Below are positions 1 through 64,000 of a stretch of DNA of 64,000 bases, in pieces. Position numbers and translations under genes: made by a program. The stretch comes from Streptomyces sp. ML-6 (GTDB lineage: Bacteria > Actinomycetota > Actinomycetes > Streptomycetales > Streptomycetaceae): positions 1,376,001 through 1,440,000 of the forward strand of contig NZ_JAOTIK010000001.1 of the NCBI RefSeq assembly GCF_030116705.1, given 5' to 3'. Positions within the stretch are counted from its first letter, which is position 1. Every line of letters starts with the position of its first letter. The notes under the pieces were generated by a model. The model worked only from the letters and a program-made list of their open reading frames with translations, made no database searches and was not told where the DNA came from.

Positions 1-818
1 GTCTCGACGACGACGAGGTCCGTCGGGGCGAGCCCCAGGGACTCGGTGAGGCTGGGGCCGCCGCTCAGCGTGGAGAGCACCGAGGAGAAGAGCCGCACCG
101 GCACCGGGCGCCCCCGCTCCTGCCAGCGGTCGAAGATCGCGAGGAGCCAGTCGGCGTAGGCGGTGGGCGAACCGTCCGGACGCGGCGGCGGGTCGTCCCA
201 GGTGGCGTGCGGGAGCAGGAAGTCGATGAGGGGCGGTTCGAGCTCGGTCAGCGCGTCGAGGACCGCGTGCGGGTCGTTGCGGATGTCGACGGTGCACAGG
301 AGGCCGAGGTCAAGGTGGCGGTAGCGCTCCTGGTGGAGCAGTTCGACGGCCTTGAGGACCAGGGGGTGGCTGCTGCGTCCGTCCGCGTAGCGGCGGTGCC
401 GGTCGTTGGCGGCCCGGTCGCCGTCGAGGGAGATGCCGACCCGGACGCCGAATTCGTCGAAGAGGTCGAGGTACCGGGGACTGAGCTGGAGCCCATTGGT
501 GTGGATGCGGAGATCGAGCTCCGCGACGCCGTCGAAGGCGGAGGTGAGTTCCTCGCAGACCCGGCGCAGTCGCGCGGGGCCCGCCAGCAGGGGCTCCCCT
601 CCGTGCAGGATCACTGACACGGAGGGCAGTGCATGTGTCTTGGCATGCTCGGCCAGGCGCTGAGCTGTCTGGAAAATGACGTCGTCAGAGATTGTTTTGG
701 GGCGGGTACGCCAGCTCTGATCTGCATGTTCGTAGACGTAGCAATGATCGCAGGCAAGATCGCACCTGCTGTGTACTTTAAGTACAATTTCGCGGAATGG
801 GACCCGGGGTCCTGTCAT
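1..818 (-). CDS. fxsB: FxsB-type radical SAM/SPASM peptide maturase, 3' end outside window
   Basis: Only the first 272 codons are in the window; the frame stays open to base 1. The protein starts MTGPRVPFREIVLKVHSRCD and has the radical SAM cluster motif CxxxCxxC at C19, C23 and C26 (CDLACDHCYVYEH), then a glycine-rich SAM-binding strand (LHGGEPLL, about residue 75) and a TNGL strand. The tyrosine after the third cysteine and the position next to an FxSxx peptide gene fit the FxsB family. Family members build three-residue cyclophanes by C-C bond formation on the precursor. The SPASM domain that would bind auxiliary clusters must lie left of base 1. The ATG follows an in-frame TAG by three codons and has GAGG just upstream. 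The gene lies 30 bases after fxsA, so they are probably co-transcribed. Confidence 0.88.
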   Translation of the reverse strand, partial: MTGPRVPFREIVLKVHSRCDLACDHCYVYEHADQSWRTRPKTISDDVIFQTAQRLAEHAKTHALPSVSVILHGGEPLLAGPARLRRVCEELTSAFDGVAELDLRIHTNGLQLSPRYLDLFDEFGVRVGISLDGDRAANDRHRRYADGRSSHPLVLKAVELLHQERYRHLDLGLLCTVDIRNDPHAVLDALTELEPPLIDFLLPHATWDDPPPRPDGSPTAYADWLLAIFDRWQERGRPVPVRLFSSVLSTLSGGPSLTESLGLAPTDLVVVE

Positions 819-848
819 TCCCTCAGTCTAGCCAGCATGCAACACGTC

Positions 849-1016
849 TCAGAGCGCGGAACTGAAGGTCGATGCCTGGGTGTGGCGGTCGGCAGGGGCC
901 GAGAGCACTCGGCCGAGCTTCCTGGTGGCTTCAGCTCCGCGAGTGTCGATCTCGGCGAGCGACACGGGGCTCTTCTTCGCAACAGCGAAGGCACGGGGGG
1001 ATTCAGAGGTCTTCAC
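849..1016 (-). CDS. fxsA: FxSxx-COOH cyclophane RiPP precursor peptide
   Basis: A 55-residue peptide, VKTSESPRAF...ASTFSSAL, whose last five residues are F-S-S-A-L followed directly by TGA. This is the FxSxx-COOH signature of FxsA precursors (Phe-x-Ser-x-x at the C-terminus). The segment SPVSLAEIDTRG resembles the conserved leader block of the family. I chose GTG at 1016 because AAGGA sits five bases upstream; the frame is open further upstream, but the longer N-terminus looks like noncoding sequence. The gene is immediately followed by the radical SAM gene. Expected chemistry is a Phe-to-Ser crosslink in the core; that it happens here is inferred from the family. The fate of the matured peptide is unknown. 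Confidence 0.85.
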   Translation of the reverse strand: MKTSESPRAFAVAKKSPVSLAEIDTRGAEATRKLGRVLSAPADRHTQASTFSSAL

Positions 1017-1093
1017 GGCCGTCCTTGAGGGAGTGTTCCGAATCTGTGGATGAATCAGCCAGTCCCTGTATGTCCACAGTGCCCGGCAGAATG

Positions 1094-1121
1094 ACTTTAC
1101 TACCCTCATCGGGCAAGGCAA
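1094..1121 (-). promoter_or_regulatory. possible fxsAB promoter
   Basis: On the minus strand TTGCCT (1116-1121) and TAAAGT (1094-1099) are separated by 16 bases, about 80 bases before the fxsA start. The match is partial. The rest of the 251-base gap 1017-1267 shows no convincing gene: the short frames there lack ribosome sites and recognisable content. Confidence 0.3.
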
Positions 1122-1267
1122 CTGCAGAGATCCACATGGCGGACGGATGACTGCGCAACCGCTCATTCTCCGTAACGGACGGCGGAACCCCGCCCGGGAG
1201 ACGGGTGGAGGGGCAGCCCGGTCCACTCCATCGAATACCCGGCACGCCCCGGGTCCGGAAATGGCCG

Positions 1268-1987
1268 TCAGTCCACCGCGGAGACGGTGCCGGACGGCTG
1301 CAGGCCCTTCATGCAGTCCATGATCCGCTCATGGGTGTCGCCCACCACGTCGGTGAACCTCGCGCGCACGTACAGCGCCTGGACCCGCTCGGTGAAGTTC
1401 TCCGAGAACGCCCCCACCAGCACGGTCTCGTGGCCCCCGCCTCCCACCAGCGGAAAGCCGGCTCCGAAGCCGATGAGCCGGAAGTCCTCGCCGACGACCA
1501 GTCCGGCCCCGGTCAGTTCGGCCACGGTGTCATGGACATCGGCCCACCTCGGGTCGCCGTCCGCGTCGTCCCCCATGCCCCTCATGACCACCCGGCAGCT
1601 CCAGGACTCGATCACGGCCAAGTGCTGGCCGCCATTGAGTATCCCGACGCGCCATGCGGGGACGTCCGGCGCCAGTTGCCCCTTCACCCAGGCCCCCCGC
1701 CAGCCGATGTGCGGCCGCATCGCCCGGGCGAACTGCGCCCGCGCCAGCACCGCTCCCGCCGCGACCGCCAACAGGCTCCCCAGGATCTGGACGTCGATCA
1801 GCTGGAGCCGCCACGGCCACTCGGCACGCGCCCCGGGCGACACGTTGACCCGGATCATCTCCCAGATCAGCACGCCGGCCAGCAGGACGAGAAGCACCAG
1901 CGGAGTGGTGAACAACAGCGGACTCCGCCGTATCCGCCGCTGGACGTCGGACGGCACGCAACCGTCCCTCCGGTCCGCTCGGCCCAT
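1268..1987 (-). CDS. two-TM membrane protein, unrecognised
   Basis: A 239-residue protein I do not recognise. A short basic N-terminus (residues 1-22, RRIRR) is followed by a hydrophobic segment at 23-42 (LLFTTPLVLLVLLAGVLIW), a second at about 64-84, and a soluble C-terminal domain of about 150 residues with alternating strand-like stretches (AVIESWSCRVV, ETVLVGAFSENF). No catalytic motif is visible. ATG 1987 is preferred over a longer frame reaching 2047 because a G-rich ribosome site precedes it and the extra residues look noncoding. It is divergent from the SLATT gene with a 251-base shared upstream region. A partner role for the SLATT protein is possible but is only inferred from position. 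Confidence 0.65.
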   Translation of the reverse strand: MGRADRRDGCVPSDVQRRIRRSPLLFTTPLVLLVLLAGVLIWEMIRVNVSPGARAEWPWRLQLIDVQILGSLLAVAAGAVLARAQFARAMRPHIGWRGAWVKGQLAPDVPAWRVGILNGGQHLAVIESWSCRVVMRGMGDDADGDPRWADVHDTVAELTGAGLVVGEDFRLIGFGAGFPLVGGGGHETVLVGAFSENFTERVQALYVRARFTDVVGDTHERIMDCMKGLQPSGTVSAVD

Positions 1988-2181
1988 CCCCGTCCCCCCG
2001 CACGCCGATGAGTGCCCATGAGTGCCGATGAGTGGATACATCAGCAACCCACCGCAGAAAATGGTCAGTTGAGAAAGATTCCCACAACCCGTCGGATCAC
2101 GCGAGAGCCCCGCACGAGGGGCCGAAAAGCATCGCTACGCCCCCGGGCGCCATTGCAGCGCCGTCGGCGCCCCCCTACGCT

Positions 2182-2213
2182 CATGCCCCGCTCGGCAGGC
2201 CGAGCGGGGCATG
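2182..2213. promoter_or_regulatory. 32-bp near-perfect palindrome before SLATT gene
   Basis: Arms 2182-2196 and 2199-2213 (CATGCCCCGCTCGGC and its exact complement) are separated by two bases. It ends 25 bases before the SLATT start codon and lies between two divergent genes, so it is not placed to terminate either. It could be a dimeric repressor operator or a 5'-UTR hairpin. No T tract follows it. Confidence 0.6.
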
Positions 2214-2238
2214 CCCTCAACCGCAGACGGGAGTGAAC

Positions 2239-3165
2239 ATGACCGCGCTTCCCGGGCCGCTCCAGAGCATGGTCTTCAGGAACGCCGACCTTCCGGCGCT
2301 CTTCCACCACACGGACGAGATCGCCATCGCGAGCCAGCGGGAGGCCGTGAACACCACCCGCGTCCAACTGATCCTGCTGGTCGTGGGCACCGCACCGGCC
2401 GCGGTTCCGTGGCACGTCACGGTCGGTGACACGTTTCAACTCATCGATGCCGCAGGCGTGTTGGCCTATCTGGGCGTCCTGATCACGACGTACCTCTCCG
2501 CCCGGCGCAAAGCAAAGTCGCAATGGCAACTCAACCGCTCGGCGGCGGAGTTCATCAAATCCATGTGCTGGCGCTACTCGGTGCACGGGGCGCCCTTCGA
2601 CACCGGCACCCAGCATCCGGAGGCGGTGTTCGCCAACCGGCTGGAGGAGGGGCTCCAGGAGCTCCGGAAGGTCGGCTGGGCCGACCCCCGCGACCTGACG
2701 GCGGATTCCGGCGGACTCATCACCGATTCCATGCGCGAGCTGCGCGGGAAGGCGTTCACCGTACGCAAGGAGACGTACGTGCGGGACCGGCTCATCGAGC
2801 AGAGGAGTTGGTACCGCAGGCGGCAGGAGGTGTCGCGGCGGGCCACCCTCGTCTGGTCGACCACCATCGCCGCGCTGACCGCGCTCGCCCTGGTCTTCGC
2901 CCTGCTGAGGATGTTCTCCGCCACCCAGTCCTTCGCCCTGACGGGGGTGCTGTCGGCGGCGGCCGCGGCCTGTCTGGCGTGGAACGAGATGCGGCGGCAC
3001 CACCCGCTGATCTCGGCGCACTCGCTGGTCGAGCAGGACCTGGAGGCGATGCAGGTGGCGATGGAGACCACGCTGACCGAACGCCAGTGGCCGCGGGCGG
3101 TCTTCGAGACCGAGCGCATCGTCTCCCCGCAGCACACCGACTGGCTGGCCCGGCACCAGATGTGA
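2239..3165 (+). CDS. SLATT (DUF4231) family membrane protein
   Basis: A 308-residue protein. Two predicted TM helices (about 42-58 and 68-86) are followed by a cytosolic helical region with the family-like strings AEFIKSMCWRY (103-113) and YVRDRLIEQRSWYRRR (180-195). Two more helices follow (204-224, 231-248), then a charged tail. Two TM helices followed by R..AE..K...WRY and Y...R..EQ..WY is the layout of DUF4231/SLATT. Such proteins are predicted membrane-perforating effectors that pair with SLOG or nucleotidyltransferase genes in conflict systems. ATG 2239 has GGGAG six bases upstream; an open extension to 2032 is ignored. A SLOG gene converges on it 96 bases downstream. No SMODS-type cyclase is seen nearby. 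Confidence 0.72.
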   Translation: MTALPGPLQSMVFRNADLPALFHHTDEIAIASQREAVNTTRVQLILLVVGTAPAAVPWHVTVGDTFQLIDAAGVLAYLGVLITTYLSARRKAKSQWQLNRSAAEFIKSMCWRYSVHGAPFDTGTQHPEAVFANRLEEGLQELRKVGWADPRDLTADSGGLITDSMRELRGKAFTVRKETYVRDRLIEQRSWYRRRQEVSRRATLVWSTTIAALTALALVFALLRMFSATQSFALTGVLSAAAAACLAWNEMRRHHPLISAHSLVEQDLEAMQVAMETTLTERQWPRAVFETERIVSPQHTDWLARHQM

Positions 3166-3261
3166 CGCGCGGCGGCACCGGACGTGACGTGTCGCGGCCC
3201 CGGATGGGCCGCGGCGCACGCATGGGGTGACGCCGGGGGCGCGGGCGGCCGCGCCCGTCGG

Positions 3262-3741
3262 TCAGCCGCGTTCCACGCCCTCGCGCCAGATCACCGTGAC
3301 GGGACGGCCCAGGCTGCGGGCGTACGTCACGATGTCGCCGGTGCCGCCGAGGCCGCGGGCGGGACGGCCGTCCCACACCGCGAGCAGCCGGTCGCAGTGG
3401 TCGGCGATGTACGCGCCCGCGGCGTAGTACGCCTCGTCGGTGGAGTGCGGGTAGTCGAGCCTGACCTCCCGGACCGCCCGGTCCTTGAGGGCCCGGTAAC
3501 GGGCGAGTTCGCCGGCGTCGGCGAAGGAGGACTCGTAGTCGCCGCTGGGGATGACCACGGTCAGCGCGGCGCCGCGGGCCAGGGCGACGTCGGCGAAGAG
3601 CTGGTCGGCCCCCACCGCCAGGCTGGAGAAGGCCTCCAGGGAGCCCTCCAGGCCGAGGAAGGCCGCCCGCAGGCCGGCGAGCACATGGGCGTGGGCCTCC
3701 TGCGGGATGCTGCGATGACCGGTCACTCCGATGCGTTTCAC
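3262..3741 (-). CDS. SLOG-domain (Rossmann-like nucleotide-binding) protein
   Basis: A 159-residue single-domain protein: an N-terminal strand and turn IGVTGHRSI (4-12), SSLAVGADQLFADVAL (39-54), strand LTVVIPSGDYE (60-70), a basic helix, then DRLLAVWDGRPARGLGGTGD (117-136) and a last strand PVTVIW. The GxTGHR start and DGxxxGGTGD loop fit the SLOG/LOG superfamily, which binds nucleotide-type ligands and is found with SLATT effectors. GTG 3741 gives the domain exactly; the frame extends to 3921 without protein-like content. It converges with the SLATT gene. A role as sensor for that effector is inferred from the known SLOG-SLATT association, not shown by the sequence. Confidence 0.7.
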   Translation of the reverse strand: MKRIGVTGHRSIPQEAHAHVLAGLRAAFLGLEGSLEAFSSLAVGADQLFADVALARGAALTVVIPSGDYESSFADAGELARYRALKDRAVREVRLDYPHSTDEAYYAAGAYIADHCDRLLAVWDGRPARGLGGTGDIVTYARSLGRPVTVIWREGVERG

Positions 3742-62318: not shown

Positions 62319-62437
62319 GTTCGGCGGCGTCCTACTCTCCCACAGGGTCCCCCCTGCAGTACCATCGGCGCTGAAAGGCTTAGCTTCCGGGTTCGGAATG
62401 TAACCGGGCGTTTCCCTAACGCAATGACCACCGAAAC
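62319..62437 (-). rRNA. rrf: 5S ribosomal RNA
   Basis: The complement reads GTTTCGGTGGTCATTGCGTT at the 5' end and ends GGACGCCGCCGAAC; the two ends pair. The internal CCGAACCCGGAAGCTAAGCC block is the conserved loop region of actinobacterial 5S. Ends are accurate to a base or two. Confidence 0.96.
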
Positions 62438-62570
62438 TCTATCGGGCCACCCCGCAAAATGGGGTATCGGCGCTTAGCGAACAAGCACACTTTTCAATTA
62501 AGTAGTGAAACTGTTCAACCGGTGCGACTGTTCGCAGCCCGGGAACAACACAGTGGACGCGAGCAACTGA
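62438..62570 (-). other. 23S-5S spacer
   Basis: About 133 bases of processed spacer, less GC-rich than the genome (for example AAGTGTGCTTGTTCGC). No tRNA is seen in it. Confidence 0.8.

Positions 62571-64000
<1,430 letters not shown>

Follow-up and report, generated by a model that had tools for sequence, protein, structure and literature searches.

A SLATT-SLOG gene pair beside an FxsABCT locus in Streptomyces: a possible effector arm of a conflict system

Does a gene pair that stands beside an fxs operon in Streptomyces sp. ML-6, one gene coding for a tandem SLATT membrane protein and the other for a small Rossmann protein of the SLOG type, belong with that operon as one conflict system? 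FxSxx peptide-processing conflict systems have been described (Kaur et al., 2020, PMC7159879), and the stretch analysed here (the window, 64,000 nucleotides; contig NZ_JAOTIK010000001.1, positions 1,376,001 to 1,440,000) holds at its left end fxsA, the start of fxsB, a gene for a protein with two transmembrane segments (two-TM), the SLATT gene and the SLOG gene. A preliminary description had placed these in one patch as a candidate four-gene conflict set. The patch was borne out by profile matches, hydrophobicity and fold; as a set, the SLATT-SLOG pair goes with fxsAB and the two-TM gene does not. Interpretation as a conflict system is partly supported, through the conserved linkage, and is altered by fxsC and fxsT, which lie outside the window and supply a candidate signal enzyme. 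The near-constant pairing with a gene set that makes a peptide and resembles an immune receptor suggests a single system, for self-sacrificing defence or for signalling, that includes a membrane arm. We tentatively read the pair as the arm that carries out the response of a complete FxsABCT system, whether for conflict or for signalling, with somewhat less than even confidence.

Composition of the locus and conservation of its linkage

The window starts inside fxsB, and the adjoining stretch of the same genome completes the locus with fxsC and fxsT. Leftward from position 1016 the minus-strand order is fxsA, fxsB, fxsC and fxsT, followed by a convergent alpha/beta hydrolase gene; rightward come the two-TM gene (minus), the SLATT gene (plus), the SLOG gene (minus) and a trypsin-type protease gene with an alpha-lytic prodomain. 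The FxsABCT system with its SLATT-SLOG pair is complete because fxsC (TIR) and fxsT (MinD-like/TIR/NB-ARC/TPR) adjoin the window. The SLATT and SLOG genes face each other, as first described, across a gap of 96 bp. The features are as follows.

1..818, minus strand: N-terminal part of fxsB (FxsBH), over the cut-offs of TIGR04269 and NF040587
849..1016, minus strand: fxsA, a 55-residue precursor with an FSSAL end (TIGR04268; related loci have F-x-S-x-x precursors in the same position)
1017..1026, minus strand: AAGGACGGCC, conserved ribosome-binding-site block before fxsA (alignment of fxsA upstream regions)
1077..1110, minus strand: conserved fxsA upstream element with a AGTAAAGT core, a probable promoter (upstream alignment)
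1268..1987, minus strand: two-TM protein, 239 residues, of no family, an optional passenger (hydrophobicity, family searches, locus counts)
2182..2213, no strand: perfect inverted repeat of 15 nucleotides with a 2-nucleotide loop just upstream of the SLATT gene, candidate operator or terminator
2239..3165, plus strand: SLATT gene, 308 residues, tandem SLATT_3 and SLATT_1 (PF18184, PF18181; hydrophobic segments), predicted membrane effector
3262..3741, minus strand: SLOG-fold protein, 159 residues, soluble, predicted nucleotide-binding partner (AlphaFold2 model, Foldseek)

The SLATT protein matches SLATT_3 (128 bits), SLATT_1 (120 bits) and DUF4231 (76 bits), all above cut-off, and has three to four hydrophobic segments, so that it is a tandem SLATT protein rather than one with a single 2TM domain; its place in the family is supported both by domains over the curated cut-offs and by membrane segments. 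The SLATT_1 region also gives a weak, sub-threshold match to 8xMP. SLATT proteins are predicted pore-forming effectors that answer nucleotide signals (Kaur et al., 2020, PMC7159879).

The small Rossmann protein is SLOG by its modelled fold, the label first given to it, with no sequence family over threshold. It has no Pfam, NCBIfam or PADLOC match at E<=1 (PHROGs lay outside the search), and no solved structure in the PDB was matched by sequence. The AlphaFold2 model has a mean predicted local distance difference test (pLDDT) score of 95.4, and its best Foldseek match is YpsA (E 3e-8), followed by ShosA and then by DprA and LOG; the Rossmannoid fold of the superfamily is thus present and a curated sequence-family match is absent. 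A PDB profile search with 33 relatives reached only EF-P and DprA at E 0.1-0.2. Weak matches of these relatives fell on DprA (7), YspA-type SLOG (YAcAr; 3), nucleoside deoxyribosyltransferase (2) and YpsA (1), and unrelated families were matched as well, the best E (0.0015) being to a VWA family in one member. In the alignment the TGH, G-x-D and GGT positions are invariant. Profile comparison of this alignment with 20 DprA sequences gave no match, a result that is uninformative at an effective sequence number (Neff) of 2.4 and with no positive control. Of 200 genomes sampled within the taxonomic family, 138 have relatives, and a family of SLOG-fold proteins that is unassigned by sequence gains here a strong functional neighbour.

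The whole fxsB gene codes for 744 residues and matches FxsB TIGR04269 at 585 bits (cut-off 370) and the FxsBH extension NF040587 at 409 bits (cut-off 225), which by family match makes it a radical SAM/SPASM peptide maturase with an inactivated-hydroxylase-type extension. The fxsA gene has a GTG start, and its product ends in F-S-S-A-L and scores 28.6 bits with TIGR04268 (cut-off 28); precursors with a similar C-terminal FxSxx stand in related loci. Its upstream element was aligned in 10 compact loci and is visible in 6 others. FxsC (474 residues; Pfam TIR, TIR_2) and FxsT (1314 residues; Pfam TIR, NB-ARC and TPR, also MinD-like) are the TIR-like and TPR/STAND members, with TIGR04276, NF040588 and NF040586 over cut-off. 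The missing signal step gains a candidate enzyme because fxsC and fxsT carry TIR, NB-ARC and TPR domains. Among 41 aligned copies of each protein, the FxsC TIR keeps a glutamate in 40, at the position that we take to be where active TIRs have their catalytic glutamate; in FxsT, 40 of 41 copies have V, L, T or I at the aligned position. On these residues FxsC appears the best candidate for the signal maker. The absence of a SMODS cyclase, remarked on from the window, holds in a whole-genome search (PF18144, no match), and the locus has no SMODS nucleotidyltransferase as in SMODS-SLATT or CBASS-like systems.

Linkage was followed in 121 genomes of the same genus. SLATT matches were found in 39, at 240 bits or more in 34 and at 113 bits or less in the other five, and SLOG matches of at least 144 bits fall in exactly the same 34 genomes, the next SLOG score being 110. 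The chance of identical sets under random presence would be about 8e-31, a figure that is only descriptive because the genomes are related. All 34 loci have SLATT and SLOG as separate genes, with SLOG convergent and 3' of SLATT in every one, at 201 bp or less in 31 and across gaps of 1.5, 4.0 and 10.7 kb in the remaining three. FxsB lies within 8 kb on the 5' side of SLATT in 33 of 34, counting one case in which it is a fragment where the contig ends. Among named Streptomyces loci (the best 80 of 172 relatives, overlapping with the 34 genomes), SLOG is convergent in 80/80 and FxsB present in 78/80; the pair clearly does co-occur elsewhere, the opposite of what would have refuted the preliminary description. 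A separate draw gave 8 same-genus genomes over the SLATT_3 cut-off (two already in the first set), and in each of the eight SLOG is found at about 1 kb or closer.

Further out the picture is thinner. Eight distant tandem SLATT_3/1 homologues, each with at least 14 kb of sequence, have neither SLOG (0/8) nor FxsB (0/8) nearby, and two of them have partial FxsT-like matches. At class level SLATT_3 was matched in 18 of 246 genomes, and the four examined of those outside the genus (G725, G631, G671 and G617) have no SLOG or FxsB near. A phylum-level SLATT search, insensitive since 9 candidates were scored per genome, found SLATT in 3 of 246 genomes, of which two, ML-6 among them, belong to the same genus.

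The linkage table takes in every two-TM row (15) and every SLATT row but one, a second piece of the G022 match at 37 bits. It has 48 SLOG rows, for which scores under about 93 bits were dropped with five exceptions, and 61 FxsB rows, where the floor was 441 bits and the G028 fragment the one exception. Genes in the loci were called by a simple codon-composition script that sets some starts wrongly and missed SLATT in L093 and L094, where tblastn finds both. Alignments (MAFFT) and trees use 45 FxsB, 41 FxsT and 41 FxsC rows as called in 47 loci.

A proposed chain and the rival explanations

From gene content, fold, conserved linkage and joint loss we infer the following functional steps. FxsT, an NLR-like STAND protein (MinD-like, TIR, NB-ARC, TPR), would be the likely sensor and switch. 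FxsB would form a cyclophane within the FxSxx peptide at the C-terminus of FxsA, and the product, as a co-signal, would probably license the response, co-activate it or report it. FxsC, a TIR with a catalytic-type glutamate, would be the likely enzyme to make a signal of the ADP-ribose type from NAD+; SLOG would bind that signal (or the matured peptide, or process the nucleotide) and switch SLATT; and the tandem SLATT would permeabilise the membrane, so that the hypha is stopped or killed. The roles of sensor, maker, relay and effector are proposed in this order because SMODS is absent, the FxsC glutamate is kept and Thoeris offers an analogy. With a near-constant membrane effector and SLOG partner, the Fxs system acquires a predicted output and a first chain that can be tested, from TIR through nucleotide and SLOG to membrane. 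We know of no experiment that has settled the roles of FxSxx cyclophane peptides and their TIR/STAND partners. In a stronger form, which we consider unlikely, the chain would be a two-key death switch in which the FxsA/FxsB cyclophane and the FxsC nucleotide, under FxsT, are both needed to act on a split SLOG sensor and SLATT pore. If true, such a switch would bring a ribosomal peptide product and nucleotide signalling by TIR together within a single immune-like circuit, a combination that to our knowledge no described system has.

Several observations weigh against an effector arm tied to Fxs. The proteins are known here from gene content, fold and linkage alone; the FxsA model score is barely above cut-off; and the ThsA structure ranks only 49th (template-modelling score 0.46) among the SLOG fold matches, so that a pocket of the cyclic ADP-ribose (cADPR) type stays putative. 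SLATT and SLOG are convergent and not co-transcribed. Among FxsB matches over 540 bits, the high-scoring loci to which this fraction applies, 15 of 46 have no SLATT within 30 kb, and 13 of the 15 were examined and have no SLATT or SLOG profile match; one of the SLATT-less loci, in G040, has group II flanks and fxs with the pair missing, so that fxs does exist without the pair. Conversely, in three loci (G057, L190 and L211) SLATT-SLOG persists although the stretch examined has no fxs (G057 has a different FxsB elsewhere in its genome), and the pair is thus not strictly Fxs-dependent. The test genomes all belong to one genus, so that counts are not independent events, and the L105 lineage discussed below is a long branch in the FxsB tree.

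The survival of the pair without fxs in three loci also lends weight to a different relation, in which SLOG would be an antitoxin-like restrainer that holds a toxic SLATT closed, with Fxs as the trigger or as an independent neighbour kept by addiction. SLATT-SLOG is the tightest link of all (34/34). Most toxin-antitoxin operons are unlike this arrangement, in which the two genes are convergent and can be separated by 1.5 to 10.7 kb, and relatives of SLOG are widespread in genomes that lack this SLATT. The second-best fold match of the SLOG protein is ShosA, the antitoxin of ShosTA, but ShosA binds DNA (PMC12593503). An antitoxin role is conceivable and, in our judgement, improbable.

Equally doubtful is an explanation without a nucleotide signal, in which SLATT-SLOG would handle the FxsA product, the matured peptide acting on, leaving through or being sensed by SLATT, whether for self-immunity or for peptide signalling in development. 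It fits the divergent fxsA-SLATT arrangement, with 200 to 244 bp between the genes in ten loci, and the processed peptide has been suggested to be a toxin or a signal (Kaur et al., 2020, PMC7159879). Yet it leaves SLOG with no obvious role, it must accommodate the SLATT-less FxsB loci counted above, and in eight loci with an inverted operon fxsB and SLATT are 7.4 to 7.7 kb apart.

Passive synteny, by which the pair and the operon would be neighbours through descent with no common function, suits genomes of one genus in which most loci have the same chromosomal flanks, but it is very improbable given loci with differing flanks, an inversion that kept the adjacency, three Fxs lineages with the same pair, and a set of genomes that is identical for SLATT and for SLOG. 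The eight inverted loci have the fxs operon turned round relative to SLATT-SLOG, so that SLATT follows fxsT, and they retain all parts. Three diverged Fxs lineages carry the pair: the main one, L105 (G007) and L244 (G434). Compared with the SLATT-linked main lineage, L105 and L244 have FxsT of 39-42% and FxsC of 26-32% identity; between each other, FxsT is 37% identical and FxsC gives no match. Their SLATT and SLOG proteins are 51-74% and 60-76% identical to group II copies. The FxsB tree (45 rows, L244 excluded) has four changes of SLATT label that are forced by its starred branches.

Losses were also joint. Genome G005 carries a scar (L280:9142-9475) in which the last 42 residues of FxsT are joined to SLOG residues up to about 81; fxsC, fxsB, fxsA and SLATT are gone and the SLOG gene is broken, which is best read, from the junction, as one deletion that removed most of the set. 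In G054, SLATT and SLOG are absent genome-wide and fxsC and fxsT are absent from the 19 kb examined, while fxsB, the two-TM gene and the hydrolase are retained. The inversion, the changed flanks, the further Fxs lineages and the joint losses speak for function over mere descent.

Neighbouring genes and other features

Genes that adjoin the pair and the operon differ in how far they travel with them. The two-TM protein has two strong hydrophobic peaks and no Pfam, NCBIfam or PADLOC match at E<=1. Its gene adjoins SLATT in 6 of the 34 same-genus loci (7 counting a diverged open reading frame in L089) and is found in 20 of 80 named loci, and relatives also occur away from SLATT, as in G056 and G115; it was rejected as a core part. 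The S1 protease gene neighbours SLOG in 24 of 27 loci of the main group, the ML-6 locus among them, and the corresponding figure is 0 of 8 for the more distant loci in which SLATT, SLOG and fxs are all retained; it is likewise set aside, as a local flank. The alpha/beta hydrolase cluster is present in 40 of 47 loci and goes with Fxs in general, since SLATT-less Fxs loci are among them. On the far side of fxsT stand an AAA gene and a VWA-like gene, with clusters in 3 of 47 loci; as the MoxR and vWA members of a VMAP ternary system these two seem unlikely, for want of conservation. Nor was a common replacement effector found among ten chosen proteins beside SLATT-less FxsBH loci, which belong to metabolic, transport or regulatory families or to none, one being a two-TM relative.

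Within the operon, an Antibiotic_NAT-family gene occurs in 22 loci and lies between fxsB and fxsC in 19, as in L096-L103, L104, L106, L108 and L109. It scores below the cut-offs of aminoglycoside acetyltransferase models, and an acetyltransferase of this type may modify the peptide. HExxH is missing from the ML-6 FxsB; the FxsB extension has it in 4 of 45 rows, none SLATT-linked, and in 0 of 32 SLATT-linked rows (several of them cut or without the extension). The idea that SLATT-linked systems had lost the HExxH hydroxylase site was nevertheless rejected, because in L244 (6352-7971, minus strand) a separate gene after fxsB has an HESAH motif and aligns weakly (26%) with the FxsBH extension. 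This gene appears to be an unfused, possibly active version of the hydroxylase in a SLATT-linked locus. Loss of the site is thus a feature of the main clade only.

Most of the ten compact loci (L078, L090 and L095 among them) have a GGAAT-N-GTTCC-like palindrome tens of bases before SLATT, a possible operator, from which the perfect repeat of the window at 2182-2213 differs. At L110:3569-13894 (G079), about ten kb and nine called genes stand between SLATT and SLOG, and both genes stay open. At the far end of the window are 5S ribosomal RNA (rRNA) and the 3' portion of a gene for 23S rRNA (62319-62435 and 62569-64000, minus strand), and it is because of these rRNA genes that G+C falls to 0.58 there.

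Comparison with known systems

SLATT effectors of nucleotide-signalled systems, as reportedly set out by Burroughs and colleagues in 2015, have a 2TM SLATT domain and a SLOG partner. The present case differs from them in having no SMODS in the genome, in its tandem SLATT_3 and SLATT_1, and in a SLOG gene that is convergent and has no Pfam family over threshold.

In Thoeris, the product of a TIR protein switches an effector that bears SLOG or is a two-helix membrane protein, the latter in the TM-macro form (PMC11204291). The likeness lies in a TIR protein together with SLOG. The differences are that SLOG, which in Thoeris (with macro as the alternative) is fused to the effector, is here unfused; that the locus also has a STAND protein and a peptide maturase; and that ThsA is a weak fold match. 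Of a TIR-made cyclic ADP-ribose signal bound by SLOG, the conserved TIR glutamate is the one putative trace here. ShosTA resembles the locus through ShosA, although its partner ShosT is a phosphoribosyltransferase instead of a membrane protein (PMC12593503). The 8xMP family (PF24838) offers another likeness, as SLOG relatives follow an 8xMP gene in G118 (L125:6432-7504) and in G060 (C1:234835-235833), with about 80 and 110 bp from match to match, a possible second pairing of SLOG with a membrane effector. These are only 2 of 18 8xMP matches, and no Fxs gene was found in the 13 kb around the G118 case.

The closest relatives are the FxSxx systems, which have, like this locus, an FxSxx peptide, a radical SAM/SPASM maturase and a TIR/AP-ATPase with TPRs, and of which a standalone actinobacterial form has an inactive MinD/ParA-like domain, as here (Kaur et al., 2020, PMC7159879). 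Among the open-access papers that the searches listed, none links FxSxx systems with SLATT or SLOG (subscription papers were mostly, and supplements wholly, outside the search), and the novelty of FxsABCT with a SLATT-SLOG pair is provisional. In the main text of that account the three mentions of SLATT concern GAP1 GTPase systems, and its FxSxx section (section 24) names no SLATT or SLOG partner (PMC7159879), whereas here the pair is a near-constant companion of the system in one clade.

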